DNA from: Peribacillus frigoritolerans
GTDB taxonomy: Bacteria; Bacillota; Bacilli; Bacillales; DSM-1321
DNA length: 64,000 nucleotides
Direction of reading: 5' to 3'
Assembly: GCF_040250305.1 (NCBI RefSeq)
Contig: NZ_CP158190.1
Span: 2,636,001-2,700,000 of the forward strand
The notes beneath the pieces were generated by a model that was not told the origin of the DNA, did not search any database, and saw only the letters and a list, made by a program, of their open reading frames with translations. The position numbers and the translations under genes are program-made. Below are positions 24 through 54,720 of the stretch, in pieces; position 1 is the first letter of the stretch; each line of letters starts with the position of its first letter.

Positions 24-2207
24 ATGATAGAAAACCAACATTTAAACAATTCCCATGAAACTCTTGAGCCGTTATTCAATCCAAGATCCATCGCAATCCT
101 AGGTGCCTCCAAGAGTGAATACAAAATCGGGAATTTACAGGTCAAAGCTCTTTTGGAGGGTCATTTTAAGGGAGAGATTTACCCGATCAATCGCAATGCA
201 AAAGAGATTGAAGGGATAAAGTGCTATGAATCATTGTCAGATGTTCCGTATGAAATTGATTTAGCCATTTTTTGCCTTGGGGCGGAGCAAGTGCAGCAAG
301 GTTTAGAGGAATGTGCTCAAAAGAAAGTGAAGGCAGCCATCATTTTTGCTGCTGGTTTTTCGGAAACAGGAAAAGAAGGCATTAAGCAACAGGAATTGCT
401 AACCGATATTGCAAGAAAGAATGGAATACGGATAGTGGGCCCCAACTGTGTTGGATTAGTGAATTTGTCGAATGGTTTGATTGGCACTTTTTCCCCTGCC
501 ATTCTATCAGTGCCCTTTAATGACCAAAGAGGGGTAGGATATGTCTCCCAAAGCGGTGCATTTGGTGTTTTGACCTATATGGCAGCAGCTCAGAATGGAT
601 TGAGCTTCAACTACTTCGTGAGTGTAGGAAATGAAATGGAAACTGAATTCTCGGATGTAATTGAATATATGATCCATGATTCCAAAACAAGTGTGATAAG
701 CGGCTACTTGGAAGGAGCAAAAAATCCGGATAAATTACGAAGCCTGGCAAAAGAGGCATTGGATAGTAATAAACCCATAATTGTAATGAAAACCGGGAGG
801 AGTTTGGCCGGAAGCAGAGCTGCTGCTTCTCATACAGGATCACTTGCGGGATCGGATAAAGTATATGATGCCTTTTTTAAACAAGCTGGCATCGTAAGGG
901 CCGACGATTATGAGGATATCATATCTTTTTCAAAGCTATTCCTATCAAAGAAGCTTCCAAATGGACGCAATACGGTAATCATCACTAGTTCTGGCGGGAG
1001 GGGGATAAATGAAGCGGATCGCTGTGAATCATACGGACTTACCATCAACCCACTCAGCTTAAAGACAACAACAGAAATCAAACGTAATATACCTGCATAT
1101 GCAAGCGCTTCCAACCCTGTGGATTTAACAGCGGCCGCCTCTGTTTCCAATCCTGAGTTATTCCTTGCGCCATTGCGGGCACTTGTGGAAGATCCGGATG
1201 TCGATAACATCATTTTTACGGAATTTCCTTTTAATTGGACTGCCGAGCACCCTTTGCTTCAAGAGTTTATTGAAATTTGCAGAAGCTCAGATAAATTTGT
1301 ATTCATTACAACTTTTCCATTAGATGGCATGACACTCCCGCCTGCTACCGCTGAGCTCGTGAAAAATGGCATACCAGTCATTCCAGGAAACCTTAATCCG
1401 ATAAGAGGGTTGGCGAAACTAGTTGAATACAGTGAATTTTATCGAAAAAATCTTGAATCTCAAGTTTCTGATAGTACAAAGAAAATAGAGAAACAAAGCT
1501 TACAGGACATGCTGAAGCCCGGTGCTACATTAAGTGAATCAGAAGCCAGTCTGGTTTTGGAACGATACGGGATTGCTGCCACGAAGCGTTTTATAACTGA
1601 AAATGAAAACGATGCAGTACAATTCGCTAACAGTATCGGTTATCCGGTTGTGTTAAAGGTCGATTCGCCGGATATCCCACATAAGACGGAAGCGGATGCG
1701 ATTCGATTGAATGTAAGGACTGAACTTGAGGTCAGGAAAGCTTTCACAGATATTAAGCGCAATGCACTAAATTATAAACCTGAGGCTACAATAAACGGCG
1801 TTTCCGTTCAGGAAATGTTACCTGATGGAGTGGAAATCATTGTTGGAGCAAGTGATGATCCCGTATTTGGACCGGTTATCATGTTTGGTCTTGGGGGAAT
1901 ATTTGTTGAGATTTACAAAGATATTTCGTTTAGAATTGCTCCGCTGTCAAGACAAGATGCACTTGAAATGATTGAAGAAATCAAGGGGAAGGACATTTTA
2001 ACGGGAGCACGCGGGAAAGCACCAGTTGATATCGAAGCCATCATTGATGTGTTATTAAAGGTTTCCGCGCTAGTTACAGATTATAAAGATTCCATCGACG
2101 AATTGGATATTAATCCTTTGCTGGTATATGAAAACGGTATCAAGGCAGCTGATGCCATGATTGTTGTAAAAAATAATGTGAAAGATAATACCGTTATTAG
2201 GGGGTAG
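24..2207 (+). CDS. Acyl-CoA synthetase (ADP-forming), acetate--CoA ligase family
   Basis: This protein activates a carboxylic acid to its CoA thioester with ATP, releasing ADP and phosphate. The 727-residue chain has the single-chain layout of the family: an N-terminal CoA-binding Rossmann domain (NPRSIAILGAS from about residue 20), two succinyl-CoA-ligase-like domains in the middle, and a C-terminal ATP-grasp domain from about residue 505 (GYPVVLKVDSPDIPHKTE, MFGLGGIFVEI, ELDINPLLV). The phospho-carrier histidine is probably H270 in AASHTGSLAGSD. The ATG is preceded by AGGAGGGA. It is the first gene of a nine-gene plus-strand run and sits 6 bp before a MaoC gene, so it most likely makes the CoA ester that the following genes oxidise. 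The substrate cannot be read from the sequence. Confidence 0.9.
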   Translation: MIENQHLNNSHETLEPLFNPRSIAILGASKSEYKIGNLQVKALLEGHFKGEIYPINRNAKEIEGIKCYESLSDVPYEIDLAIFCLGAEQVQQGLEECAQKKVKAAIIFAAGFSETGKEGIKQQELLTDIARKNGIRIVGPNCVGLVNLSNGLIGTFSPAILSVPFNDQRGVGYVSQSGAFGVLTYMAAAQNGLSFNYFVSVGNEMETEFSDVIEYMIHDSKTSVISGYLEGAKNPDKLRSLAKEALDSNKPIIVMKTGRSLAGSRAAASHTGSLAGSDKVYDAFFKQAGIVRADDYEDIISFSKLFLSKKLPNGRNTVIITSSGGRGINEADRCESYGLTINPLSLKTTTEIKRNIPAYASASNPVDLTAAASVSNPELFLAPLRALVEDPDVDNIIFTEFPFNWTAEHPLLQEFIEICRSSDKFVFITTFPLDGMTLPPATAELVKNGIPVIPGNLNPIRGLAKLVEYSEFYRKNLESQVSDSTKKIEKQSLQDMLKPGATLSESEASLVLERYGIAATKRFITENENDAVQFANSIGYPVVLKVDSPDIPHKTEADAIRLNVRTELEVRKAFTDIKRNALNYKPEATINGVSVQEMLPDGVEIIVGASDDPVFGPVIMFGLGGIFVEIYKDISFRIAPLSRQDALEMIEEIKGKDILTGARGKAPVDIEAIIDVLLKVSALVTDYKDSIDELDINPLLVYENGIKAADAMIVVKNNVKDNTVIRG

Positions 2208-2213
2208 AGAGCA

Positions 2214-2672
2214 ATGGAACTCGATCATTTGAATGGTTTAACTGGAGCTGAATTTATATTTGAAGTCGAAAAGAGGCATATCCGTCAATTTGCTGAGGCG
2301 ATTGGTGATTTTAATCCCTTATATATGGATGAAGAATTTGCTGCGAAAACTTCATATGGTGGCATTATAGCACCGCCAACCTTCCCGATTGCCATTGGTC
2401 AGGATAGCGGCGAAAGCCTTGACTTGGGCCTGGAACAAAGGAGAATGCTGCATGGTGAACAGGAGTTTATTTATTCCCGCCCCATTAGACCAGGGGATAG
2501 GTTGTACTGTCAGATGAAAGTTGCAAATGTATACGAACGGGAAGGAAGAAAAGGAACGATGCAGTTCTTGGTACTTGATACAGAAATGAAAGATGAGTCA
2601 GGTGAAATGGTGGTCATAAGCCGAACAAATATCATTTATCGGCCCATCAAGAGTGATCATGCTCCTGTTTGA
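2214..2672 (+). CDS. MaoC-like hot-dog protein, FAS1-type N-terminal dehydratase domain
   Basis: A 152-residue single hot-dog fold protein of the MaoC N-terminal (FAS1_DH-like) type. The segment GDFNPLYMD (31-39) corresponds to the hydratase-2 motif GDxNPxH, but the catalytic His position is Tyr37, so on its own it is probably not a competent enoyl-CoA hydratase. The next gene codes for a second, motif-complete MaoC protein. In actinobacterial steroid degradation such pairs form a heteromeric hydratase in which only one chain is catalytic; I infer the same here. The start lies 6 bp after the ligase stop, with GGGGTAGAGAGC acting as ribosome site. Confidence 0.85.
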   Translation: MELDHLNGLTGAEFIFEVEKRHIRQFAEAIGDFNPLYMDEEFAAKTSYGGIIAPPTFPIAIGQDSGESLDLGLEQRRMLHGEQEFIYSRPIRPGDRLYCQMKVANVYEREGRKGTMQFLVLDTEMKDESGEMVVISRTNIIYRPIKSDHAPV

Positions 2673-2748
2673 AAAAACATGCTCATAGTTCATGGCATTA
2701 AAGTATCAATATCAAATTCTAGCAAACTGCAAACAGGAGGAATCAGGG

Positions 2749-3165
2749 ATGTTGAAATATGAAAATTTACATGAAGGGCAAAGACTTGAATCTTTCATCA
2801 AGCCACCTGTAACCAAGGTTCAACTTGTTAAATACGCCGGTGCTTCAGGAGATTTCAATCCATTGCATACAGATGATGCATTTGCACAAGAAATTGGCAT
2901 GAATGGTGTGATTGCTCATGGAATGCTGGTAATGGGGTTTCTTGGTGAATATGTAATGAAACTGGCTGGTGATCATGCTGTACCAGCAAACTTTAAAATG
3001 AGATTTGGTGCTGTAACCGTACCAGGAGATCGACTCACGTGTTCTGCTTTTGTGAAAAGTTTATATGAAGAAAGAGGTCAACGCTTTGTAAGGCTGGACC
3101 TTATTGCTGAAAAGGAACCAGAGCAAATTGTGGGTTCAGGTGAAGTCGTTTTACAGATTAAATAA
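2749..3165 (+). CDS. MaoC family enoyl-CoA hydratase (catalytic-type subunit)
   Basis: A 138-residue MaoC hot-dog protein with the full hydratase-2 signature YAGASGDFNPLHTDDA (29-44). D35 and H40 are the expected catalytic pair, so it should hydrate a trans-2-enoyl-CoA to the 3-hydroxyacyl-CoA. An ATG at 2692 in the same frame would add 19 residues, but AGGAGG at 2735-2740 lies 8 bases before the ATG at 2749, and nothing similar precedes 2692, so I use 2749. It follows the His-less MaoC homologue and precedes the thiolase-fold gene; the two MaoC proteins likely form one complex. Confidence 0.88.
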   Translation: MLKYENLHEGQRLESFIKPPVTKVQLVKYAGASGDFNPLHTDDAFAQEIGMNGVIAHGMLVMGFLGEYVMKLAGDHAVPANFKMRFGAVTVPGDRLTCSAFVKSLYEERGQRFVRLDLIAEKEPEQIVGSGEVVLQIK

Positions 3166-3197
3166 AGTTATCAAGTTATCAAATAGGAGGGTTTATT

Positions 3198-4361
3198 ATG
3201 GAAAGCATTAAAAATCGCTATGCCATTGTCGGTGTAGGGGAAAGTGAGCGTTCTAAGAATTCCGGTACAACCCCGTTACATTTGGCGTTGGACGCTGCTC
3301 GAGCTGCATTGAATGATGCTGGGCTTCAAGCGAAAGAAATTGATGGGTTCATGAGCTATTCGGAAAACGATTCTTGTACATCTCATCAATTAGCAACATA
3401 TTTAGGGGTCCGTCCCAAATATGTTAAGGATATTTTGGGCGGGGGAAGCAGTACCGAAATGCTGATAGCTGACGCTGTTGGATTAATCGAATCAGGTCAA
3501 TTGAATACGGTGTTGATTTATCGTTCCATGAATGGACGCTCAGGGGTAAGGATGGGTGGAGGCGGATGGGATGTGAATATGCTTCAAACAGCCATAGAAG
3601 GCGGAAGCTTCATCATTCCTTACGGTGCTGGCAGTCCTGCTCAGTGGTTCGGACTTTTTGCGACGCGACATATGCATGAAACCGGGCTGACAGAGGAACA
3701 TCTAGGGCATGTCTGTTTAGCTTTTTACGAACATGCTCAAAGGAATCCTAAAGCTTACTTTTATGGTAAACCACTAACGATGGAGGAATATCTTAAAACG
3801 CCCTATTTAAGCTATCCATTTAAAAAACATGATTTCTGCCTGGAGTCCGATGAAGCAAATGCAATCATTGTCACTTCAGCAGAACGAGCTGAAGGATGCA
3901 AGTCCAGACCGGTATACATCATGGGTTTATCTGCTAGGCAGTGTGTGTCCCATGCACATTATTGGAATGATTTAACCGAAGTGGCTGCTGACTATGTCGC
4001 GCCTGAGGTATATAAAATGGCTGGAGTAAAACCTGAAGATATTGACGTTGCATCCATATATGACTGTTATAGCTGGGTTGTACTTCGGCAGCTGGAGGCT
4101 TATGGATTTGCTCCGCGTGGAGAGGTCGGTAACTTTGTAGCCGAAGGAAACTTGCGGATCGGTGGGAAATTACCTTCGAATACCGCAGGAGGAATGTTAT
4201 CGGAAGGATATACACATGGAATGAATAACGTATTGGAAATCGTTCGTCAAGTTCGCCATGAATACAAAGGAACCGTTCGTCAAGTTGAAAATTGTGAAAT
4301 TGGAATCTGTACTGGCTGGGCTGGACCTGATATGGCCGGTGCCATGATTTTAAGAAATTAG
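3198..4361 (+). CDS. Thiolase-fold protein, lipid-transfer/Ltp2-like, probable acyl-CoA retro-aldolase
   Basis: A 387-residue thiolase-superfamily protein of the SCP-2 thiolase / lipid-transfer subgroup. The N-terminal half starts YAIVGVGESERSK. Where true thiolases carry the nucleophilic Cys (GGCASG-type motif) this one reads GGGSSTEM (81-88), with no Cys. The C-terminal half keeps an Asn/Gly-rich loop (SNTAGGMLSEGYTHGMN) and an ICTGWAG segment. Loss of the Cys together with an adjacent DUF35 gene is the arrangement of Ltp2-type aldolases, which cleave a 3-hydroxyacyl-CoA to a carbonyl compound plus a short acyl-CoA. That reaction is inferred; a non-catalytic thiolase-like role is the alternative. 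The ribosome site is AGGAGGGTTT before ATG. Confidence 0.85.
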   Translation: MESIKNRYAIVGVGESERSKNSGTTPLHLALDAARAALNDAGLQAKEIDGFMSYSENDSCTSHQLATYLGVRPKYVKDILGGGSSTEMLIADAVGLIESGQLNTVLIYRSMNGRSGVRMGGGGWDVNMLQTAIEGGSFIIPYGAGSPAQWFGLFATRHMHETGLTEEHLGHVCLAFYEHAQRNPKAYFYGKPLTMEEYLKTPYLSYPFKKHDFCLESDEANAIIVTSAERAEGCKSRPVYIMGLSARQCVSHAHYWNDLTEVAADYVAPEVYKMAGVKPEDIDVASIYDCYSWVVLRQLEAYGFAPRGEVGNFVAEGNLRIGGKLPSNTAGGMLSEGYTHGMNNVLEIVRQVRHEYKGTVRQVENCEIGICTGWAGPDMAGAMILRN

Positions 4362-4372
4362 GAGGGGACAAA

Positions 4373-4789
4373 ATGGGATACCAAAAACCTATTCCGCTAA
4401 AAACACAGGATAATAGACCATATTGGGATGGCGCAGATCGTCATGAACTGATTCTTCAAAAATGCAATAGCTGTCATCAATATTCCCACCCTCCCGGTCC
4501 GAGCTGTGCAAAATGTGGCAGTTCTGAACTTAGCTGGGAAAGCCAAGGCAGCGATATTAACGGTAAAGTCTATTCATATATCGTTTCCTATCGACCCTTT
4601 TTACCTGGATTCCAGGATGATTTACCGCTCGTAATTGCCATAGTCGAATTAGAAATGTTGCCCCAGGTCAAGTTAATCGGAAATATTTTGCAATGTTCAC
4701 CAGAGGATATTGAAGTGGGTATGCCAGTAAAGATGGTTTGGATGGAAATTGCGGATGAACGGTCACTGCCGCAATGGATTCAGTTATAG
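4373..4789 (+). CDS. DUF35 OB-fold protein with N-terminal zinc ribbon, thiolase partner
   Basis: A 138-residue protein with the rubredoxin-like zinc ribbon plus OB-fold layout of the DUF35 family. The zinc ligands are C31, C34, C45 and C48 (CNSCHQ and CAKCGS). The OB-fold region follows (GKVYSYIVSYRPF, PLVIAIVELE). DUF35 proteins typically bind thiolase-fold partners and are needed for their activity; here the gene begins 11 bp after the thiolase stop, with AGGAGGGG before its ATG. I infer that it forms a complex with the preceding gene product. Confidence 0.9.
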   Translation: MGYQKPIPLKTQDNRPYWDGADRHELILQKCNSCHQYSHPPGPSCAKCGSSELSWESQGSDINGKVYSYIVSYRPFLPGFQDDLPLVIAIVELEMLPQVKLIGNILQCSPEDIEVGMPVKMVWMEIADERSLPQWIQL

Positions 4790-4826
4790 AAGTGTAATTT
4801 GCAAGCATTAAAGGAGGAAAGTATCT

Positions 4827-6023
4827 ATGGATTTTTCGTTTACAACCAAGGAAGAAGAATTCCGTCTTGAATTGAGGGCGTGGCTTGAAGGAAATTTACC
4901 TGAAGGTTGGCTTGAAGGAATCAGTAATGTTTCAAAAGATGAAGGTGAGTATGCCGTTTCCCTCAGGAATTGGCAAAGGAAATTATATGAAGGTGGCTGG
5001 GCAGCGATTGCCTGGCCCAAAAAATACGGCGGACGAGAAGCGACGTTGATGGAGGAAATAGTTTATCAACAGGAAATGGTTAGAGTAAAGGCTCCGGCGC
5101 TTGTGAATTATGTAGGCATCCATATGGTGGGACCCACTCTAATGCAGATTGGAACGGACGAACAAAAAGCAAAATATATCCAAAAAATTCTCACAGGAGA
5201 GGAAGTATGGTGTCAAGGATATTCCGAACCGAATGCTGGATCTGATTTATCCGCCATTCAAACAAGTGCCGTAAAGGATGGAGATCGGTGGATCATTAAT
5301 GGTCAGAAGGTTTGGACAAGCTTTGGACACTTAGCTGATCGATGCTTTTTACTGGCTCGGACGAATCGTTTTGATAAAAAGCATAAAGGGATAACGGTTT
5401 TCCTATTGGATATGAATCAGCCGGGGGTGGAAACAAGGCCCATCATTCAAATGGATGGTCAGCATGATTTTAATGAAGTCTATCTGAATGATGCGATTGC
5501 ATACGATGCTGAAATAGTTGGGGAGGTAGATGAAGGCTGGAAAGTTACGATTGCATTGCTTATGCATGAAAGAACGGGAATCGGAGCGCAAGTTTTTACA
5601 TTGGAGCAACAATTTAATGAACTTGTAGGGTTAGCTAAAGAATTGAAAGAAGATGATAAGCCATTGTTGGGCAATCCGCTTGTTCGTCATACAATGGTAG
5701 ATTTATATACTCGCTCCCGGGGTTCACTTTTGAACTATTATCGTAATCTAACTAAGACATTAAAAAACGGTCATCCTGGTGCAGAAGGTTCAATGGATAA
5801 ATTGATGGTAAGTGAACTTACCAAGGAGCTGTTGTCCCAATCTATTTCATTACAAGGACATAAGGGCGTTCTATGGAAAGAAGATGCAATCTCCTCCAAC
5901 TCATATTGGCAGGATAATTATCTTTATTCTTTTGGACAAACAATTGGAGGTGGAACGAGCGAAATTCAAAAGAACACTATTGGGGAAAGAATTCTAGGTT
6001 TACCAAAAGATATGGGACGTTAA
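4827..6023 (+). CDS. Acyl-CoA dehydrogenase, catalytic-type subunit
   Basis: A 398-residue acyl-CoA dehydrogenase (FAD). It shows the flavin-binding segment WCQGYSEPNAGSDLSAIQTS, followed by INGQKVWTS, and the C-terminal GGGTSEIQKNTIGERILGLP. The MCAD-type catalytic Glu site in the C-terminal motif is Gly here. Instead E248 in LLMHERTGIG falls where isovaleryl-CoA-dehydrogenase-type enzymes keep their base, so this chain can be catalytic. The next gene, 21 bp downstream, is a second acyl-CoA dehydrogenase lacking that Glu; the two probably assemble as an alpha/beta heteromer. The ATG follows AAAGGAGGAAAG. Confidence 0.92.
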   Translation: MDFSFTTKEEEFRLELRAWLEGNLPEGWLEGISNVSKDEGEYAVSLRNWQRKLYEGGWAAIAWPKKYGGREATLMEEIVYQQEMVRVKAPALVNYVGIHMVGPTLMQIGTDEQKAKYIQKILTGEEVWCQGYSEPNAGSDLSAIQTSAVKDGDRWIINGQKVWTSFGHLADRCFLLARTNRFDKKHKGITVFLLDMNQPGVETRPIIQMDGQHDFNEVYLNDAIAYDAEIVGEVDEGWKVTIALLMHERTGIGAQVFTLEQQFNELVGLAKELKEDDKPLLGNPLVRHTMVDLYTRSRGSLLNYYRNLTKTLKNGHPGAEGSMDKLMVSELTKELLSQSISLQGHKGVLWKEDAISSNSYWQDNYLYSFGQTIGGGTSEIQKNTIGERILGLPKDMGR

Positions 6024-6044
6024 GATGAAACGGGGGGAATAAAG

Positions 6045-7181
6045 GTGGATTTTTCTTTAAATCAAGAACAAGAAATGTTTCGCGGATATGTCCGGAAATA
6101 TTTAGATGGTGCCGGGCAAACAAAAACGGCCCGTGCATACATAGAGGGTGAAACTGGATCTCTAAGGGCCTTATTATCGGGGCTTGCCGAATTAGGATGT
6201 ACAAGCATCAATATATCGGAAGACTACGGGGGAATGGGCTTGGGTCCCCTTGATTTAATACCTGTACTTGAAGAAACCGGCCGTTCTTTATTGCCGGGTT
6301 TATACTTAGAAACGAATGCACTAGCTGTGCCATTATTAGAGAAATTCGGTACGGAAGAACAAAAAGGTAGGTATTTAGCAGAAATTGCGGCCGGTACAAA
6401 AACATTCTCACTAGCTTGGTTAGAACCAGGTGGAAGTTACGGTCCTTTTGGGATTAACTTGGAGGCAAGATCCCTAAACGGTCAGTTGATATTAAGTGGA
6501 GTGAAAACAATGGTTCCCGATGCTGAGTTGGCTGATCATTATATAGTGTTAGTCCGCACAGGCAAAGGTAACCGAAATGAAGGGATTACATTAGTTATCG
6601 TCGATCGAAATGAAACGAATTTGACGCTTGAAAGCCAGAAAAACATTGATGAAACCCGACAATTGTCAGCATTGGCTTTCAATGATGTTGAAATTCCCAT
6701 GGGTCAGGTACTTGGGGCAATGCATCAAGGATGGGATGCCCTCCAAGAAGGATTACTCTCTTTCAATGCAGCTCTCTCCGCAGTAATTGTCGGGTGTATG
6801 GAGAAAGTGGTAGAAATGGCAGCAGAGTATGCGAAGATTCGTGAACAATTTGGTCAGCCCATAGGAAGATTCCAAGCGATTAAACATAGAATCGTCGATA
6901 TGAAAATGGATCTCGAAACAGCTAGATCTTTAGCTTATTATGCTAACTGGGCTTTGGAAAGCGGGGCAGAAGATCGTGTTCAAGCCATTTCCTGCGCACG
7001 AATATTTGCCACGAAAGCATTCGTACGAATTTCGTCAGACAATATTCAGATTCATGGTGGAATTGGGTTTACAGAAGAAATTGATTGTCACCTTTTTGTT
7101 AAGCGTGCAAGGTTCTATGAGAATTATTTGGGAAGTACTGAACAATATTACAAACAGGCCGCTACGGCATTAGGTTGGTAG
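6045..7181 (+). CDS. Acyl-CoA dehydrogenase-like protein, probable non-catalytic partner
   Basis: A 378-residue acyl-CoA dehydrogenase homologue with the typical C-terminal half (EYAKIREQFGQPIGRFQAIKH and IQIHGGIGFTEEIDCH). The position matching E248 of the preceding protein is N241 (LLSFNAALSA), and the C-terminal region has no Glu substitute that I can recognise. The flavin/substrate segment is also weak (LAWLEPGGSYG). Heteromeric acyl-CoA dehydrogenases of steroid catabolism show this one-active, one-inactive pattern, so I infer a structural beta subunit. The start is GTG at 6045 after GGGGGGAATAAAG. Confidence 0.88.
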   Translation: MDFSLNQEQEMFRGYVRKYLDGAGQTKTARAYIEGETGSLRALLSGLAELGCTSINISEDYGGMGLGPLDLIPVLEETGRSLLPGLYLETNALAVPLLEKFGTEEQKGRYLAEIAAGTKTFSLAWLEPGGSYGPFGINLEARSLNGQLILSGVKTMVPDAELADHYIVLVRTGKGNRNEGITLVIVDRNETNLTLESQKNIDETRQLSALAFNDVEIPMGQVLGAMHQGWDALQEGLLSFNAALSAVIVGCMEKVVEMAAEYAKIREQFGQPIGRFQAIKHRIVDMKMDLETARSLAYYANWALESGAEDRVQAISCARIFATKAFVRISSDNIQIHGGIGFTEEIDCHLFVKRARFYENYLGSTEQYYKQAATALGW

Positions 7182-7236
7182 AAAAGCAGAAAGGGCTACT
7201 CTCATGTATTACTAATCCGAAGGGTGGAGATGAACG

Positions 7237-8712
7237 TTGGAAATTTCATATAAAGTGAAAGAGTACCAGAATATGATTAATGGCGATCTGGTTCCAGCTT
7301 CTTCCGGGAAGCGGATTGAGAGCCACGATCCGTCAACAGGCAGGGTTTGGGCAACCATTCCTTGCAGTATGGCCCAGGATGCCGAAGCGGCGGTAGAAGC
7401 AGCCCGAAGTGCTTTTGCCGATTGGTCCTCGAGGCCAGCTATGGATCGGGCAGCTTACCTGAGGAAAATAGGTGACTTAGTCATAAAGCATGGTAAAGAG
7501 CTAGCTGAGTTGGAATCAAGAGACAATGGTTGGGTGATCAGGGAAACGAGCCACGGCCTCATTCCCAGCTTAGCAAGCCTTTGGTATGATGCAGCAGGTG
7601 CAACAATTATTGGAAGTAAGGGTGATACTGTCCAATTGGGACCTTCAAGTGTAGGTTATTCATTGAGGGAACCTTTAGGGGTAGTAGTAGGAATCCTTCC
7701 ATGGAACTCACCGCTTTTCACTTTTACCATTAAAGCGGCTTATGCGATTGCAGCAGGAAATGCTGTCATTATCAAACCATCTGAATTGGCTTCTATCGCT
7801 TCACTACGATATGGAGACCTGATTAATGAAATCCTCCCGCCAGGAATCCTGAATGTCGTATCAGGAACTGGAGCGGAAGTGGGGGATACTCTAGTAAGCC
7901 ATCCAGATGTGAACAAAATCAGCCTGACCGGTTCTGGAGGAACGGCAAGGGCGATAGCACAATCGACCGCACGAAACCCTAAGCCCATGATTTTGGAGCT
8001 TGGCGGGAAATCGCCAAACATAGTCTTTGCGGATGCAAACCTTGAAAAAGCAGCACAAGGAGTGACAAACTATGGGATATTTAGCGGCAACGCAGGCCAA
8101 CTATGTGTAGGCGGATCGAGGATTCTAATTCAAAGGTCCATATTCGATGAAATGATCATTAGGATGAAAGAAGTGATAGAACAACAAATTCAACTGGGTG
8201 ATCCAATGAATCCAGCCACTTCAATGGGACCGATCGCTAACGCTGTTCAATATGAAAAAGTCCTCTCATATATAGAATTAGGCCAAAAGGAAGGAGGGGA
8301 AATCATCATCGGTGGCCGTCATGGAGGTGTTAGCCTATTACCTGATGAACCCAATTTAGCTGATGGCTATTGGGTTGAGCCAACACTGATCAAGGTCAAT
8401 AGTAATTCTCTCCGTATCTGTCAAGAAGAAATCTTCGGTCCGGTAGCGACCGTTATCCCCTTTGATACGGAAGAGGAAGCCCTCACCATAGCTAATGACA
8501 GTGATTTTGGTTTAGGAGCTGGAATATGGACCTCGAATTTGGATCGGGCACACCGGATGGTCCGTAAACTGGAATCGGGTAATGTGTGGGTGAACTTGTT
8601 TCGCAGGGTGGGACCTGAACTCCCATTCGGAGGCCAAAAAAGCAGTGGATTTGGAACGGATACCATTCTTGAATATACCCGTGAAAAGACCGTTTATATG
8701 GAAATAGGATGA
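7237..8712 (+). CDS. NAD(P)-dependent aldehyde dehydrogenase
   Basis: A 491-residue class I/II aldehyde dehydrogenase that oxidises an aldehyde to the acid. Visible motifs are the Rossmann segment (KISLTGSGGTA), the general base E254 in LELGGKSP, the nucleophile C290 in GNAGQLCVGGS, and QEEIFGPV near the C-terminus. The start is TTG at 7237 behind AAGGGTGGAG; no better start lies downstream. In an operon with a predicted retro-aldolase this enzyme would dispose of the aldehyde product, and the ADP-forming ligase could reactivate the acid for another round. That link is inference. Confidence 0.92.
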   Translation: MEISYKVKEYQNMINGDLVPASSGKRIESHDPSTGRVWATIPCSMAQDAEAAVEAARSAFADWSSRPAMDRAAYLRKIGDLVIKHGKELAELESRDNGWVIRETSHGLIPSLASLWYDAAGATIIGSKGDTVQLGPSSVGYSLREPLGVVVGILPWNSPLFTFTIKAAYAIAAGNAVIIKPSELASIASLRYGDLINEILPPGILNVVSGTGAEVGDTLVSHPDVNKISLTGSGGTARAIAQSTARNPKPMILELGGKSPNIVFADANLEKAAQGVTNYGIFSGNAGQLCVGGSRILIQRSIFDEMIIRMKEVIEQQIQLGDPMNPATSMGPIANAVQYEKVLSYIELGQKEGGEIIIGGRHGGVSLLPDEPNLADGYWVEPTLIKVNSNSLRICQEEIFGPVATVIPFDTEEEALTIANDSDFGLGAGIWTSNLDRAHRMVRKLESGNVWVNLFRRVGPELPFGGQKSSGFGTDTILEYTREKTVYMEIG

Positions 8713-8768
8713 GTTCTTATGAGATTAGCAGGGAATTCACTGTAAATAGTGGACTGGGGGTTCTGTAA

Positions 8769-10046
8769 ATGGCACAAGATTCTAAAGGCATTTTTTATGG
8801 ATGGTATGTTGTGTTGTGTGGCTTTTTCATAATGTTCGCAGGTTTCTCGATAATAAATTCCCTGCATAGTTTGTTCATGGTCCCGGTTACAGAGGATTTA
8901 GGAATAAGCAGAACCACTTTTTCCATTGCACTTTCCATTGCTGGCCTTGGAGTGGCTGTTGCTTCTCCGATCATGGGTAAATTACTCGCTAAAGGGAATA
9001 TGAAATTGATCATGTCAATTTGCGTAGTAATTGCCGGAGCAGGATTCATGTCATACTCGCTTGCCAACTCAGCTGTATATTTTAGTATCATAGGCTTTGT
9101 AATTGGCATCTGTGTTGCAGGCTTTTCCAATATTCCCATATCAATCATGTTAACCAATTGGTTTTATGAGAAAAAAGGAAAGGCCATGGGTTTGGCATTT
9201 GCGGGATCGGGAATTGGGGCAGCAGTACTCAGTCCGATCATTACAAATTTAATCTCAAATTATGGTTGGAGAACGGCCTACGTAATAGCAGGGATACTGA
9301 TAATTGTCTTAACATTACCCTTGGTTCTTCTATTTGCAAAGAAAAGTCCCGCAGAAAAGGGCCTTGTTCCATTGGGCTCTGACAAAATGGAAATGGCCGA
9401 AACTAATGTGGAATCTGAACAGAATGGCTTAACGATGGGGGAAGCAAAGAAGACAGCGATGTTTTGGATTTTCGTACTTGGAATCGTTTGTTTTGCATTA
9501 GTCGCTGGCGGGGTGCAAATGCATATCCCGGCATACTTGATCGATATAGGGCATCCAGCCATTTTTGCTGGCACCATTTTTGGAATACTATCTTTGGCAA
9601 ATACGGTTGGAAAATTGATTTTAGGAGCTGTTTTGGATAAGTACGGTACGGCAGGAGGCGCCATTTATGTAGGCGCTTGCATGACGATTGCTATGGCAGC
9701 GCTATTGTTAGCTAAGACACAGGCATTCGCATTCTTATTCGCCATCGCCTTTGGCTTTAGCATTGTGATATCCACTCTAGGGCCTCCCTTCATGACAAAT
9801 GATATCTTTGGAAAGAAGGACTTCGGCTCCATCTTTGGCATAGTGCAAGTTTTTTTTGTGGCGGCAGGCTCATTGGGTGTGATCGTTTCGGGTGTAATCT
9901 ATGATTTGACAGAAAGCTATCGTGCAGCTTGGATCTTCTTTCTTTGCTTATTCATCTTCAGCATGGTTTGTGTACTAGCGGCAAATGGCATGAAAAAAAA
10001 GACGATCAGAAGAATCAAAAATATTTCCGACCAAAAAATTGGATAG
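8769..10046 (+). CDS. MFS transporter, oxalate/formate antiporter-like (OFA) type
   Basis: A 425-residue major facilitator with about 12 hydrophobic segments. The N-terminus GWYVVLCGFFIMFAGFSI resembles monocarboxylate/OFA-type carriers. The motif-A-like loop (SPIMGKLLAKGNMK) lies between the second and third helices, and a long hydrophilic loop follows helix 6. It is the last gene of the catabolic run, 56 bp after the aldehyde dehydrogenase, and is followed by a strong bidirectional terminator, so it probably imports the acid that the operon degrades. The substrate is unknown. Confidence 0.88.
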   Translation: MAQDSKGIFYGWYVVLCGFFIMFAGFSIINSLHSLFMVPVTEDLGISRTTFSIALSIAGLGVAVASPIMGKLLAKGNMKLIMSICVVIAGAGFMSYSLANSAVYFSIIGFVIGICVAGFSNIPISIMLTNWFYEKKGKAMGLAFAGSGIGAAVLSPIITNLISNYGWRTAYVIAGILIIVLTLPLVLLFAKKSPAEKGLVPLGSDKMEMAETNVESEQNGLTMGEAKKTAMFWIFVLGIVCFALVAGGVQMHIPAYLIDIGHPAIFAGTIFGILSLANTVGKLILGAVLDKYGTAGGAIYVGACMTIAMAALLLAKTQAFAFLFAIAFGFSIVISTLGPPFMTNDIFGKKDFGSIFGIVQVFFVAAGSLGVIVSGVIYDLTESYRAAWIFFLCLFIFSMVCVLAANGMKKKTIRRIKNISDQKIG

Positions 10047-10099
10047 TTTGCCAGAGATAAAAAACAAATGGAAGGGGGTATTTTCCGTAAATAAAACCG

Positions 10100-10140
10100 G
10101 GTAAAGAGCGGCAGTCTAGATTGCTGCTCTTTACCTTATT
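10100..10140. terminator. Bidirectional intrinsic terminator
   Basis: Arms at 10100-10113 and 10122-10135 form a 14-bp stem with one G-T wobble and an 8-nt loop. T-rich ends flank it weakly on both strands. It sits between two convergent genes and can serve both. Confidence 0.75.
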
Positions 10141-35217: not shown

Positions 35218-35239
35218 AGTCTTTGACTCTAAAACCAAA

Positions 35240-35256
35240 TTGTCGACAATCGACAA
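35240..35256. promoter_or_regulatory. Palindromic operator candidate for the GntR regulator
   Basis: TTGTCG-ACAAT-CGACAA is a perfect 6-bp inverted repeat with a 5-bp spacer. It contains the shorter palindrome TTGTCGACAA. It lies 75 bp before the first SDR start, overlapping a -35-like TCGACA. Confidence 0.55.
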
Positions 35257-35330
35257 AAAGAATGTTATTATGTAATCGTATTCAAGCAAGAATATTATCA
35301 CCAAGATCAATGGGAGAAAGGGAGAATAAT

Positions 35331-36119
35331 ATGCAAGCATTTGATTTTACAGAAAAAGTAGCAATTGTTACCGGCGGCGGCGGGGGTATCGGTCGGGCAG
35401 CGTCTATTACACTTTCAGAAAATGGTGCCAAAGTGGTTGTTGTAGACCTTTCCGAAGAGGCTGGCATGCTAACGGTAAATAAAATCAAAGAAAAAGGCGG
35501 CGAAGCGAAATTCGTTAAAGCTGATGTTACAAAGGAAGACGATATAAAAAATTATGTTCAAAAAACGATAGATTTCTATGGGAAAATCGATATTTTCTTG
35601 AATAATGCAGGTTGGGAAGGCAAAATAATGCCGCTTATCGACTATCCTGCTGAGGTTTTCGATCAATTAATGTCAATAAATGTACGCGGTGTTTTCTTGG
35701 GCATGAAACATGTATTGCCCCATATGATTGAACAAAAAAGCGGGGCGGTCGTGAATACAGCTTCTGGAGCTGGTTTACTGGCAACGCCAAACATGGTGGC
35801 GTATGGCGCTAGTAAACATGCGGTTCTAGGAATGACGAAAACAGCTGGTGTCGAAGTTGCTCCACATGGTGTCCGGGTGAATGCCGTCTGTCCAGGTGTC
35901 GTCAACACGGCTATGATGCGGTCGATTGAAAGCGGATTTGGTCAAGGAGATTCCGCGGCAGCTGAAACGGCTAGAAAACAGTTGGAAGCAACGACTCCGG
36001 ATGGCAGGTATGCTGAGCCGCAGGAAATTGCAAATCTAATGATGTACTTAGTATCCGAACTTTCCAGCCACATTACGGGTCAAGAACTTGTAATCGACGG
36101 AGGGGCCATTTTAATCTAA
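35331..36119 (+). CDS. Short-chain dehydrogenase/reductase (SDR) 1
   Basis: A 262-residue classical SDR. It has the NAD(P)-binding TGGGGGIGR, the NNAG motif (FLNNAGWEG), Ser of NTASGAG and the active-site YGASK, plus PGVVNT. Asp in VVVDLS after the second strand favours NAD. The frame is open to 35223, but AAAGGGAG ahead of ATG 35331 sets the start. It is first of three SDRs in a row, likely controlled by the GntR protein upstream; the substrate is unknown. Confidence 0.92.
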   Translation: MQAFDFTEKVAIVTGGGGGIGRAASITLSENGAKVVVVDLSEEAGMLTVNKIKEKGGEAKFVKADVTKEDDIKNYVQKTIDFYGKIDIFLNNAGWEGKIMPLIDYPAEVFDQLMSINVRGVFLGMKHVLPHMIEQKSGAVVNTASGAGLLATPNMVAYGASKHAVLGMTKTAGVEVAPHGVRVNAVCPGVVNTAMMRSIESGFGQGDSAAAETARKQLEATTPDGRYAEPQEIANLMMYLVSELSSHITGQELVIDGGAILI

Positions 36120-36153
36120 TAAGCAACGAACTTTGTTATAGGGGGACGAATAC

Positions 36154-36906
36154 ATGAGTTTACTAGGAAAGGTCATAATAATTACAGGAGCGGGCAGCGG
36201 AATTGGGAAGGAAACGGCATATAAATTAGCTGACCAGGGAGCTATCGTCGTAGCTGCAGATTATAATGATATTGCCGCTAAAGAAACGGCAGAATCTATT
36301 CAACAAAAGGGAGGCACGGCATCTTTTGTGAAAGTGGATGTAGCTAAAGCGGAAGAAGTGGAAGCGATGGTCGAAGCTGCAATTGCCAAACATGGCACCA
36401 TCAATGGCATTTTCAACAACGCTGGAATTGGACTAGTAAAACCATTTTTGGAGATGGATCCAGAATCATACCACAGAGTAGTTGATGTTGATCAACACGG
36501 TGTTTATTATGGCATGTATTATGCAGCAAGGAAGATGGTCGAGCTTGGTGTAACAGGCGCAACGATTGTTAATACAGCCTCAATATATGGGACGATGGTT
36601 TCTATTGGCAGCTTTAATTACCATGCTGCAAAAGCAGCAGTCATCGCGATGACTAAATCCGGTGCAATTGAACTTGCGCAATATGGGATTCGCGTTGTCG
36701 GTGTTGCACCAGGTTTTATCGAAACGCCGATCATTGGTGAAGATCCAGAGTTCCTGGACAGTTTGGCACAACTTCATATGAGGAAAAAATTGATTCAGCC
36801 AGAAAAAGTTGCTGAAGTTGTAACGTTCTTGTTCTCTGAAAAAGCGGATGCCATTAATGGACAAGTCATTCCTGTTGATGATGGATTCTTAAGCTTTAAG
36901 GGCTAA
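36154..36906 (+). CDS. Short-chain dehydrogenase/reductase (SDR) 2
   Basis: A 250-residue classical SDR with TGAGSGIGK, NNAGIG, NTASIYG and active-site YHAAK; Asp in VAADYN suggests NAD. GGGGGAC precedes the ATG. It is 35 bp after SDR 1 and shares its direction, so it is co-transcribed. The closest function is a 3-oxoacyl reductase or alcohol dehydrogenase-like oxidoreductase, and the substrate is not readable. Confidence 0.92.
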   Translation: MSLLGKVIIITGAGSGIGKETAYKLADQGAIVVAADYNDIAAKETAESIQQKGGTASFVKVDVAKAEEVEAMVEAAIAKHGTINGIFNNAGIGLVKPFLEMDPESYHRVVDVDQHGVYYGMYYAARKMVELGVTGATIVNTASIYGTMVSIGSFNYHAAKAAVIAMTKSGAIELAQYGIRVVGVAPGFIETPIIGEDPEFLDSLAQLHMRKKLIQPEKVAEVVTFLFSEKADAINGQVIPVDDGFLSFKG

Positions 36907-36958
36907 TCAATATAATCAAATACAATTTCGAGATAACTTAAAAAGGGAGTTTTGACAT

Positions 36959-37744
36959 ATGAGCAAACGATTCGATGGCAAAGTTGTAATCATTACTGGG
37001 GCAGGGTCAGGTTTAGGACAAGCAGCCGCATTGGAAATGGCTAAAGAAGGGGCAAAACTTGCATTAGTTGATTTAAACGATACATCTTTGGAATCGACAA
37101 AAAAATTAATCTTGGAAATTGCACCACAATCGGAAGTGCTCCTCGTCACTGCAGATGTATCGGATGAAGAAGCAGTAAAGAACTATGTAGACCAAACAGT
37201 CAGCAAATATGGCAGAGTCGATGGATTCTATAATAATGCGGGTATCGAAGGTAAACAGGCCCCTATGGCTGAATACGATAGCAACGTTTTCAACAAAGTA
37301 ACGGACATCAATATCAATGGTGTATTCTATGGTATGAAATACATTCTGCCAATCATGAAAGAACAAGGCTCAGGGGCAGTCGTGAACGTGGCTTCTGTAG
37401 GCGGGATTCGTGCTGTGCTTAACCAAGCTGCATACGTTGCAAGTAAACATGCTGTAGCAGGCTTAACAAAGACTGCTGCCATAGAATATGGTCAATATGG
37501 TATCAGCATAAATGCCATTGCACCAGGAGTAATCTTAACAGCGATGGTAGAGGGATCATTCAGGCAAATAGGCGGAGAGAATTGGGAAGAAGCAATGGCG
37601 GATTTCGTCAGTGTGAATCCTAAGAAACGCTTCGGTAAACCTGAAGAAGTCGGCCGTTTAGTTGCCTTCCTATTATCAGGGGAATCAGAGTTCATCAACG
37701 GTGTAGTCATTCCGATTGATGGCGGACAATCTTCACAATACTAA
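36959..37744 (+). CDS. Short-chain dehydrogenase/reductase (SDR) 3
   Basis: A 261-residue classical SDR with TGAGSGLGQ, NNAGIEG, NVASVGG and active-site YVASK; Asp in ALVDLN suggests NAD. It ends the SDR cluster and is followed by a strong terminator. SDRs 1 and 3 share NNAGxEG and a GMKxxLPxM segment, so they look like closer paralogues of each other than of SDR 2. Confidence 0.92.
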   Translation: MSKRFDGKVVIITGAGSGLGQAAALEMAKEGAKLALVDLNDTSLESTKKLILEIAPQSEVLLVTADVSDEEAVKNYVDQTVSKYGRVDGFYNNAGIEGKQAPMAEYDSNVFNKVTDININGVFYGMKYILPIMKEQGSGAVVNVASVGGIRAVLNQAAYVASKHAVAGLTKTAAIEYGQYGISINAIAPGVILTAMVEGSFRQIGGENWEEAMADFVSVNPKKRFGKPEEVGRLVAFLLSGESEFINGVVIPIDGGQSSQY

Positions 37745-52665: not shown

Positions 52666-52731
52666 TTAAGTAAACTACCAATATTATGAAATGATTCAAT
52701 GACGCATTTGATACCTAAGGGAGATGATTGT

Positions 52732-54720
52732 ATGAAATCGCTTACAGATGGACAAATCATTTGGGAACCGACAAAGGAACAAATCGAGCAAACGGTATTG
52801 ACTCAATATGTGAAATGGTTAAAAGAAAAGAAAGGTATAACATTTCATGATTATCATGAATTATGGAAATGGTCGGTAGATGAACTGGAGGAATTTTGGG
52901 CTTCAATTTGGGATTATTGTGATGTAAAAGCAGCCAGGAAATATGACAGGGTTTTAGCGGAGCAATCAATGCCAGGTGCGAAATGGTTCGAGGGGGCAAG
53001 GCTTAATTATGCTGAAAATGCATTATGGAATGAGCAAGAAGAGAAAACTGCGATTTTTTTTCGTTCCGAACACATCAGGCAGCAGGAAGTCAGCTGGAAA
53101 GAGCTGAAAGAAAAAGTAGCTTCTGTCGCCCATTCATTAAGGAAACTTGGTGTGAAATCCGGTGACCGTGTTGTTGCCTATATGCCAAACATACCTGAAG
53201 CTGTCATAGCTTTCCTGGCAACAGCAAGCATAGGTGCCATTTGGTCCAGTTGTTCACCTGACTTTGGGGCAAGAAGCGTCATAGATCGTTTCAAACAGAT
53301 TGAACCAGTTGTATTACTGGCGGTTGATGGATATCAGTACAATGGAAATGTATATGATAAAACATCAGTCGTCTCCCAGCTTAAACAGGAATTGGTCACT
53401 GTAAAGCATACCGTGCTGGTTCCTTACATAGAAAAAAAGATTTTGGATATGAATCTGGCAGATACGGTTCCTTGGGATGACCTTTTAAAAGAAAAGGCAG
53501 AATTATCTTTTGAAAATGTTCCGTTCGATCATCCGCTTTGGATTCTCTATTCATCCGGTACAACCGGAATGCCAAAACCAATTGTACAAGGGCATGGCGG
53601 TATATTATTGGAGCATTTAAAATCAACAAGAATCCATCAAGGCATGACTTCCGAGGATACTGTATTCTGGTTTACGACTACAGGCTGGATGATGTGGAAT
53701 CTCCTTATGGGCGGTTTGCTTAATGAAGGGACCATCGTCCTTTATGACGGCAGTCCTTCTTTTCCGAATATGGATGCCCTTTGGGAATTGGCTGAAGATA
53801 CAGGCATGACCTTCTTTGGAACAAGTGCACCATTCCTTACGAATTCCATGAAGTTAGGAAACAAGCCAATGGGAAAATATGATTTATCAAAATTGAAGGC
53901 TCTTTTTTCAACTGGGGCTCCATTGTCTGGCGACGGTTATAAATGGGTGTATGAGAATGTCAAGAAGGATATCTGGCTCAGTTCATCCAGTGGCGGAACC
54001 GATGTTTGTGCCGGGTTTGTAGGTGGCGTTCCAACATTGCCCGTAAGAATCGGAGAGATACAAGGAAGGGCATTGGGTGTTTGTGCAGAAGCTTTTGATG
54101 AGCATGGTCAAACATTGATTAATGTAGTCGGTGAATTGGTCATTACCAAACCGATGCCATCCATGCCGCTATACTTCTGGAATGATCATGATGGGACAAG
54201 ATACTACGAGAGTTATTTCGATACGTATCCTGGCATATGGAAACATGGTGATTGGATAAAGATTGACGACAAGGGCAGCTGTATCATTTATGGTCGTTCC
54301 GACTCGACGATCAACCGTTCTGGTGTACGGATGGGAACTAGCGATATCTACCGGGTCGTCGAAGCGATCGACGAGGTGATGGAAAGCCTTGTCATTGATA
54401 GGGAAGTGCTTGGCCGCGGTTCCTCACTGCTGCTGTTTCTTGTCCTTAAGCCCGGTAATAGCCTGGATACAGCATTGACGGCAAAAATCAAGGAACAAAT
54501 CAGAGGGCAAGTGTCCCCTCGCTTTATCCCTGACCAAATCCATGTCGTTGAACAAATTCCTAAAACGTTGAACGGAAAGAAAATGGAAGTCCCGATACGT
54601 AAAGTGTTATTAGGTTTCGAGTTTGATAAAGTAGTCAATGCAGACTCCATGGGAAATCCAGAATCGCTACAGTTCTTTAAAGAATTAGCTCTCGAGTTGA
54701 ATGAGAAAAAAATATTCTAG
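52732..54720 (+). CDS. Acetoacetate--CoA ligase (acetoacetyl-CoA synthetase)
   Basis: About 662 residues, AMP-forming adenylating enzyme of the acetoacetyl-CoA synthetase branch: the N-terminal ACAS domain (WEFWASIWDYCDV-like DELEEFWASIWDYCDVKA, AKWFEGARLNYAEN), the P-loop ILYSSGTTGMPKPIVQ, and FTTTGWMMWNLLMGG. It activates acetoacetate, so it serves ketone-body or leucine/PHB metabolism. The frame opens at 52699, but AAGGGAG eight bases before ATG 52732 sets the start. It has its own promoter and terminator. Confidence 0.92.
   Translation: MKSLTDGQIIWEPTKEQIEQTVLTQYVKWLKEKKGITFHDYHELWKWSVDELEEFWASIWDYCDVKAARKYDRVLAEQSMPGAKWFEGARLNYAENALWNEQEEKTAIFFRSEHIRQQEVSWKELKEKVASVAHSLRKLGVKSGDRVVAYMPNIPEAVIAFLATASIGAIWSSCSPDFGARSVIDRFKQIEPVVLLAVDGYQYNGNVYDKTSVVSQLKQELVTVKHTVLVPYIEKKILDMNLADTVPWDDLLKEKAELSFENVPFDHPLWILYSSGTTGMPKPIVQGHGGILLEHLKSTRIHQGMTSEDTVFWFTTTGWMMWNLLMGGLLNEGTIVLYDGSPSFPNMDALWELAEDTGMTFFGTSAPFLTNSMKLGNKPMGKYDLSKLKALFSTGAPLSGDGYKWVYENVKKDIWLSSSSGGTDVCAGFVGGVPTLPVRIGEIQGRALGVCAEAFDEHGQTLINVVGELVITKPMPSMPLYFWNDHDGTRYYESYFDTYPGIWKHGDWIKIDDKGSCIIYGRSDSTINRSGVRMGTSDIYRVVEAIDEVMESLVIDREVLGRGSSLLLFLVLKPGNSLDTALTAKIKEQIRGQVSPRFIPDQIHVVEQIPKTLNGKKMEVPIRKVLLGFEFDKVVNADSMGNPESLQFFKELALELNEKKIF

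Follow-up and report, generated by a model that had tools for sequence, protein, structure and literature searches.

A question raised by the nine-gene operon at the start of the stretch analysed here, a window of 64,000 nucleotides from Peribacillus frigoritolerans (G000:C1:2636001-2700000, on the single contig of a 5.6 Mb genome), is whether its products cut an acyl-CoA chain by an aldol reaction and not by thiolysis, as an initial annotation made from the sequence alone had suggested. The operon itself is real: nine co-directional open reading frames (ORFs) occupy the plus strand from 24 to 10046, in line as that annotation had listed them, and domain searches agreed on their families (Table 1). 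It is likely, in our judgement, that the operon serves to shorten a carboxylic acid taken up from outside, and that it does so by aldol, not thiolytic, cleavage, with a replication-initiator-like/XRE protein encoded just upstream probably setting its expression. From the sequences this appears to be an undescribed gene set common to many Bacillus relatives, and many carriers seem to control it by a protein resembling those that start plasmid replication. The literature available to us describes CoA-linked retro-aldol chain cleavage by thiolase-fold enzymes in Actinobacteria and Proteobacteria, where it acts on steroid side chains; the operon would extend it to a large group of Firmicutes, probably with another substrate. 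As the initial annotation had supposed, no described example from a Bacillus relative was found in the literature as judged on titles, term counts and abstract openings, with most subscription papers outside that scope.

The evidence that carries this reading comes first from the thiolase-like protein, whose gene is single-copy in the genome. It had been called Cys-less, which holds for the missing nucleophilic Cys but not for Cys290 of the YDCY motif, which is present and conserved. At the nucleophilic position the 42 distinct operon sequences all have GGG[SA]S, as against Cys in 10/10 Bacillales comparison thiolases. Tyr288 and Tyr338, the equivalents of Ltp2 Tyr294 and Tyr344, are likewise kept in 42/42, so that a Sal-type Cys (YDC[YF]) is combined with the second Tyr of Ltp2 in each of them, and Y288, D289 and Y338 are invariant across 23 aligned sequences. 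Tyr288 would serve as base, and Cys290 and/or Tyr338 as acid. In a predicted-fold comparison the top structural match was the Ltp2-DUF35 steroid aldolase, the characterised aldolases 6ok1 and 9myr ranking first and third among solved structures, and 5m3k was also among the matches. In a tree that included Cys-thiolases (47 rows, 12 of them in no group), the operon proteins fell on the aldolase side as a clade of their own (100/100), with a YDAF clade as sister (100/98) and Ltp2 next out (90/86; the Ltp2 grouping itself, 91/87); these neighbours were unchanged in an earlier tree of 49 rows without Cys-thiolases. The clustering with Cys-thiolases that would have spoken against an aldolase was not seen, and the phylogeny proposed in the initial annotation bore out the nearness to Ltp2 but not membership, the protein lying outside both the Ltp2 and the Sal clades. 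A single clade of operon, YDAF and Ltp2 rows was tried and rejected (p-AU 0.0015), a value that concerns an incomplete row set alone, because Bacillus testis L140, itself a member of the Ltp2 branch, was omitted from it. Tree position, catalytic residues and the ranking of 6ok1 and 9myr support the retro-aldol reading at the level of sequence and predicted fold, and suggest that the aldolase is neither Ltp2 nor Sal and unites features of both active sites in one enzyme. Such an active site would be a natural intermediate, and with the Sal Cys and the Ltp2 Tyr present side by side, the proposed path from thiolase to aldolase can be tested directly by mutation; thiolase-fold aldolases are also of interest as catalysts, according to the available text of PMC12329534.

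Table 1. Features of the operon, with positions in the window and the residues or domains on which each assignment draws
Feature	Position	Strand	Residues, domains or models
ADP-forming acyl-CoA ligase, 727 aa	24..2207	+	CoA-binding, Succ_CoA_lig and ATP-grasp_5 domains
MaoCa, HadA-like, presumed non-catalytic hydratase partner	2214..2672	+	Tyr37 in place of the active-site His
MaoCb, HadB-like, predicted catalytic hydratase partner	2692..3165	+	Asp54/Asn56/His59
Thiolase-fold predicted retro-aldolase	3198..4361	+	Tyr288-Asp-Cys290-Tyr plus Tyr338; nucleophilic Cys missing, GGGSST there
Stand-alone DUF35 protein, predicted aldolase partner	4373..4789	+	Cys4 zinc ribbon and OB fold; zf-ChsH2 and OB_ChsH2_C
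ACADa, predicted catalytic acyl-CoA dehydrogenase subunit	4827..6023	+	Glu248 aligns with ChsE4 Glu247
ACADb, acyl-CoA dehydrogenase subunit	6045..7181	+	Glu missing at both usual catalytic positions
Aldehyde dehydrogenase	7237..8712	+	Catalytic Cys290 and Glu254
MFS carrier	8769..10046	+	Nearest NCBIfam models: bile-salt and lactate/oxalate carriers, all below cut-off
Terminator-like hairpin at operon end, 17 pairs	10099..10136	+	Sequence

Two known systems can be set beside this one. Ltp2-ChsH2(DUF35), which works with ChsE1-ChsE2 and ChsH1-ChsH2 of the igr operon on the steroid C3 side chain, has the same fold, the equivalent tyrosines and a DUF35 partner, and its operon likewise has paired acyl-CoA dehydrogenases (ACADs) and paired MaoC proteins with one degenerate partner each. 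The window enzyme differs from Ltp2 in having Cys (42/42) for the His of YDHF, a residue that forms the oxyanion hole according to the available text of PMC12329534, in its separate clade and in scoring below the cut-off of NF005892, while its operon differs from igr in the stand-alone DUF35, the MaoC pair nearer HadA/HadB, the additional ADP-forming ligase and aldehyde dehydrogenase, and the Bacillales host. The likeness to Sal-Shy, which acts on the bile acid C5 side chain in Comamonas, lies in the YDC(Y) motif (Sal Tyr302/Cys304), matched by YDCY or YDCF in 42/42, and, by analogy, in a carbonyl product that would be an aldehyde and be oxidised by a dehydrogenase. Against Sal, the operon enzymes form a separate clade and have Tyr (42/42) in place of Gln352; against Sal-Shy as a whole, the window has a Cys4 site where the zinc site of the Shy DUF35 is described as Cys3His (PMC12329534, available text), and two separate MaoC proteins where Sal-Shy has one fused to DUF35.

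Enzymes closer to these two systems were also seen in other Bacillales. In B. testis, L140:5371-12010 (minus strand) holds a second, igr-like operon with an AMP-forming ligase, an ACAD and two MaoC proteins (the latter by eye), followed by an Ltp2-family protein, a DUF35 protein (by eye), an ACAD and CoA-transferases, with transposase-like ORFs adjoining (by eye); its Ltp2-family protein has YDAF plus Tyr and passes the NF005892 cut-off (525.3 vs 469 bits). Sal-like aldolases (YDCY plus Gln), which form a clade with CtSal (100/99), occur in L139, L141:5019-8562, L142:5046-8562 and L143:5054-8573. In the last three the gene has on one side an acetoacetate-CoA-ligase-like gene, identified by score in L142 alone (704.3 vs 520.9 bits) and by eye in L141 and L143, and on the other a DUF35 gene (by eye), with a transporter-like ORF next; together these genes possibly break down a hydroxy acid by a short aldolytic pathway.

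The paired subunits point in the same direction as the aldolase, a residue-by-residue check having found one catalytic and one degenerate partner in both the ACAD and the MaoC pair. The closest matches of ACADa are 4x28 and 6wy8 (chains 4x28_A and 6wy8_B), which we take to be the ChsE4-ChsE5 and FadE28/29-type enzymes. Counted by hand on the alignment, its Glu248 corresponds to residue 247 of 4x28, presumably the catalytic Glu247 of ChsE4, and this position is Glu in 44/44 homologues; in ACADb, Glu occurs in 0/45 at the tallied positions. The best NCBIfam models for the ACAD pair are the large and small subunits of pimeloyl-CoA dehydrogenase, below cut-off. In MaoCb the Asp and His are kept in 42/42 homologues, and its start is probably the internal Met at 2749 and not the beginning of the longest ORF at 2692, because similarity begins near 2749. 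The active-site His position of MaoCa is Tyr in 44/45 homologues and Phe in one, a Tyr-for-His substitution that the available text of PMC11321319 describes for the non-catalytic ChsH2. The DUF35 proteins keep four Cys in 44/44; that of the window operon is free-standing, unlike ChsH2 and Shy, in which DUF35 is fused to MaoC (PMC11321319, available text).

The most economical reading of these families would be activation, dehydrogenation, hydration, retro-aldol cleavage and aldehyde oxidation. The MFS carrier would bring an acid into the cell and the ADP-forming ligase would convert it to an acyl-CoA, in which a predicted ACADa/ACADb heteromer would introduce an alpha,beta double bond and a predicted MaoCa/MaoCb heteromer would add water. 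The thiolase-fold/DUF35 aldolase would then cleave the resulting 3-hydroxyacyl-CoA to give a carbonyl compound and a short acyl-CoA, and the aldehyde dehydrogenase, whose Cys and Glu are kept in 32/32 homologues, would oxidise the carbonyl to an acid, which the ligase could possibly re-activate. The best model for the aldehyde dehydrogenase is of the betaine-aldehyde type, for which reason a betaine/gamma-butyrobetaine route was considered, but the score lies far below the cut-off (423.3 vs 668.6). The initial annotation had noted that a 3-hydroxyacyl-CoA dehydrogenase is missing, and PF02737 (3HCDH_N) indeed has no match in the window, the nearest strong one lying about 50 kb upstream. Ordinary thiolytic beta-oxidation, with the thiolase-like protein as a non-catalytic scaffold and the dehydrogenase and thiolase supplied from elsewhere in the genome, could draw on seven strong 3HCDH_N matches in the genome; we consider it hardly credible, given the invariance of Y288, D289 and Y338, the thiolase-like protein being among the most constrained of the operon in a five-locus codon comparison, and the seven flanking gene families common to at least 6 of 44 related loci, none of which is a 3HCDH-type dehydrogenase. 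An SDR family is among the seven (6/44 loci), within the operon solely in L026 (three members scanned). A further alternative, in which the thiolase and DUF35 proteins work in reverse or as a PhlABC-like acyltransferase and the operon builds a compound rather than degrading one, gains something from 5m3k and from the DUF35 partners that the available text of PMC12329534 reports in PhlABC and HMG-CoA synthase complexes, and seems to us very unlikely.

The gene set is conserved in related loci. A scan of species representatives with the thiolase protein alone gave 279 stretches, the best 80 of which (79 loci) were kept. Besides the window genome, 44 Bacillales loci from 15 named genera (L002-L046 minus L043) carry the six core genes, namely two MaoC, thiolase-like, DUF35 and two ACAD, together in 44/44 and with 44-98% protein identity; since the thiolase-only search recovered the other five core genes every time, the set is not due to chance. 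Judged by the thiolase-like protein, 'Bacillus sp. BA3' (98%) is the nearest named relative, followed by Peribacillus butanolivorans (95%). An ADP-forming ligase is found in 29/44 loci and an AMP-forming ligase in 13 others, as typed by scanning one representative of each of two ligase clusters; the two without either are B. testis and a locus cut by a contig end. Third codon positions are the most variable in every gene compared in the five loci (MFS not among them). In B. testis the set is split: the six core genes are at L030, and a separate block of ligase, aldehyde dehydrogenase and window-type MFS genes, 64-67% identical to those of the window, stands beside a gene for the upstream regulator, which ties this block to the same function. 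The operon is patchy, as only 8/199 genomes (this one and relatives), and 4/35 of the window's genus, carry an operon-type thiolase (at least 79% identity). EtfB/EtfA genes come after the operon in 8/44 loci. A betaproteobacterial metagenome-assembled genome (L043) has a thiolase-like protein 59% identical to that of the window. It is accompanied by DUF35, by an ADP-forming ligase (36%) and by what looks by eye like a periplasmic-binding-type protein, whereas the 13.5 kb examined gave no match to the ACAD or MaoC proteins of the window.

As to the substrate, the kind of enzymes lets us guess at a bulky or ring-bearing acid, be it aryl-alkanoic, alicyclic or bile-acid-like. A true steroid or bile-acid side-chain pathway, with the Sal/Ltp2 reactions on a C5 or C3 side chain and the rings left intact or excreted, is suggested by the thiolase-like protein, DUF35 and ACADa, each of which has steroid-acting enzymes as its closest characterised relatives (4x28 and 6wy8 presumably being steroid enzymes). 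The model nearest to the MFS carrier is a bile-salt MFS one (212.9 of 400 bits), that nearest to an SDR adjoining the operon in L032 is 7alpha-hydroxysteroid dehydrogenase (298.6 of 450 bits), B. testis additionally carries the igr-like operon, and Bacillus is named among genera with old steroid-degrading isolates in the available text of PMC6678751. We nevertheless hold this pathway to be improbable. The operon enzyme lies outside both steroid aldolase clades, and the available text of PMC5790920 confines the 9,10-seco pathway to Actinobacteria and Proteobacteria, its hits in Firmicutes being scattered and without hsaC. Among 34 of the 45 operon genomes (window genome and 44 loci) searched for KshA_C, PobA, intradiol and gentisate dioxygenases, KshA_C gave low-scoring matches in 8/34 (best 34.6 bits, seven over the Pfam cut-off of 23.3) and none in the window genome, and because of the latter steroid-ring catabolism is unlikely. 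Aromatic ring cleavage as a general next step was rejected, as no marker is general: PobA is over its cut-off in 1/34 genomes (weaker matches in 26/34, counting that one), intradiol dioxygenase is in 6/34, and gentisate-dioxygenase-like proteins at E up to 1e-10 are in 8/34, none over cut-off. In the window genome an intradiol and a gentisate-like match were found, one of each, at a great distance from the operon.

The gene for the replication-initiator-like/XRE protein lies just upstream of the window and is conserved group-wide, gene plus repeats spanning G000:C1:2633649-2635841. For residues about 271-599 there is a predicted fold match to the iteron-binding initiators RctB, R6K Pi and F RepE, so that the protein may have the double winged-helix fold of such initiators, and the regular 22-bp spacing of the direct repeats nearby is a further likeness; the protein differs from these initiators in its extra N-terminal region, its C-terminal XRE helix-turn-helix and its company with a chromosomal catabolic operon, and a replication role is not indicated. 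The repeats GTCGGGGCTATC and GTCGGGGTCATC, with a GTCGGGG core and 22 bp start to start (G000:C1:2635808-2635841), are located between the regulator gene and the operon, and the two-repeat pattern occurs once in the entire window genome. Over the 45 operon upstream regions, a TCGNG pair on the operon strand with a spacing of 21 or 22 bp is found in 28/33 genomes with the protein and 0/12 without, a contrast to be discounted to the extent that the GTCG/TCGNG core was picked after viewing the first-scoring sequences and that related loci are not independent. The lag is 22 in 25/33 and 21 in three more; over the range 10 to 60 every other lag occurs in three at most, and the reverse strand gives at most one; the first scoring (at least 12/14 identical bases, lag 22) had given 3/21 loci against a shuffle mean of 0.055. 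Five protein-positive loci have no pair by the final rule (L019, L026, L030, L031 and L044), among them L026 and L031 with GTCG pairs at 22 bp that fail at the fifth base; in B. testis the regulator gene is unlinked to the core operon and the pair is missing there. Three copies 22 bp apart are found in Oceanobacillus L011/L012.

The repeats go with the protein and not with the ligase type. Five Sporosarcina loci have repeats and no regulator gene in the flank examined, and the prediction that the gene would be elsewhere in the genome held for all of them, while it is missing from all 12 operon genomes that have no repeats and have other or no known regulators. A GAF/PucR-type regulator is found instead in 11/44 loci (L009, L010, L032, L034-L040 and L046; one scanned), which have AMP-forming ligases except in the contig-cut L039 and no repeat pair upstream. 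From these patterns we propose that the initiator-like protein binds the repeat pair and controls the operon, by either activation or repression, so that in most carriers examined, the window genome included, expression would probably be set by this protein on 22-bp-spaced repeats before the first gene. Protein and repeats might otherwise be remains of an integrated plasmid origin. Besides the predicted fold match to RctB, Pi and RepE, relatives of the protein are found on 27 plasmid records, 24 of them Bacillales by name, with 24-37% identity in the 25 listed. Of two plasmid records examined, L171 shows a repeat array ahead of the gene, made up of two 15-base copies at 21 bp from each other and additional related copies, and L170 has irregular repeat spacing; tandem-repeat scans of both gave nothing further. 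Such an origin is an unlikely explanation, in our view, as the repeats stand before the operon where the regulator gene is downstream (L015, L016 and L025), where it lies beyond the examined flank though in the genome (L017, L018, L020, L022 and L023) and in L011/L012, where MaoCa is the first gene. If control of the operon by this protein holds, a replication-initiator fold has come to serve as a metabolic switch, for which the repeats define a candidate operator. The fullest form of our hypothesis, that a third thiolase-fold aldolase lineage, combining the acid Cys of Sal with the acid Tyr of Ltp2, runs a complete aldolytic operon in Bacillales on a non-steroid substrate under a plasmid-derived initiator protein binding 22-bp iteron pairs, is offered tentatively, its chances falling a little short of even.

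Several observations weigh against the aldolytic pathway as drawn here. The thiolase-like protein scores 336.7 against a cut-off of 469 bits with the Ltp2 family model NF005892; ACADb is nearest to ordinary acyl-CoA dehydrogenases (4l1f, 146.3 bits, vs 91.2 for 6wy8_A and 78 for 4x28_D); and the MaoC pair is closer by overall similarity to HadA/HadB of fatty acid synthesis than to ChsH1/ChsH2. The SDR inside the operon of L026 could be a hydroxyacyl dehydrogenase, and since the aldehyde dehydrogenase is linked to the operon in only 31/44 loci, some carriers might produce a ketone as the carbonyl or process it by enzymes encoded elsewhere. Intradiol, gentisate-like (E to 1e-10) and over-cut-off PobA matches are together missing from 22/34 operon genomes, so that the shortened acid may be exported or pass into general metabolism.

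Elsewhere in the window, an acetoacetyl-CoA-synthetase-like ORF was seen by eye at 52699-54720, with no aldolase adjoining, and at 35223-37744 three short-chain dehydrogenase-like ORFs stand in a row, preceded by a GntR-like regulator (by eye).

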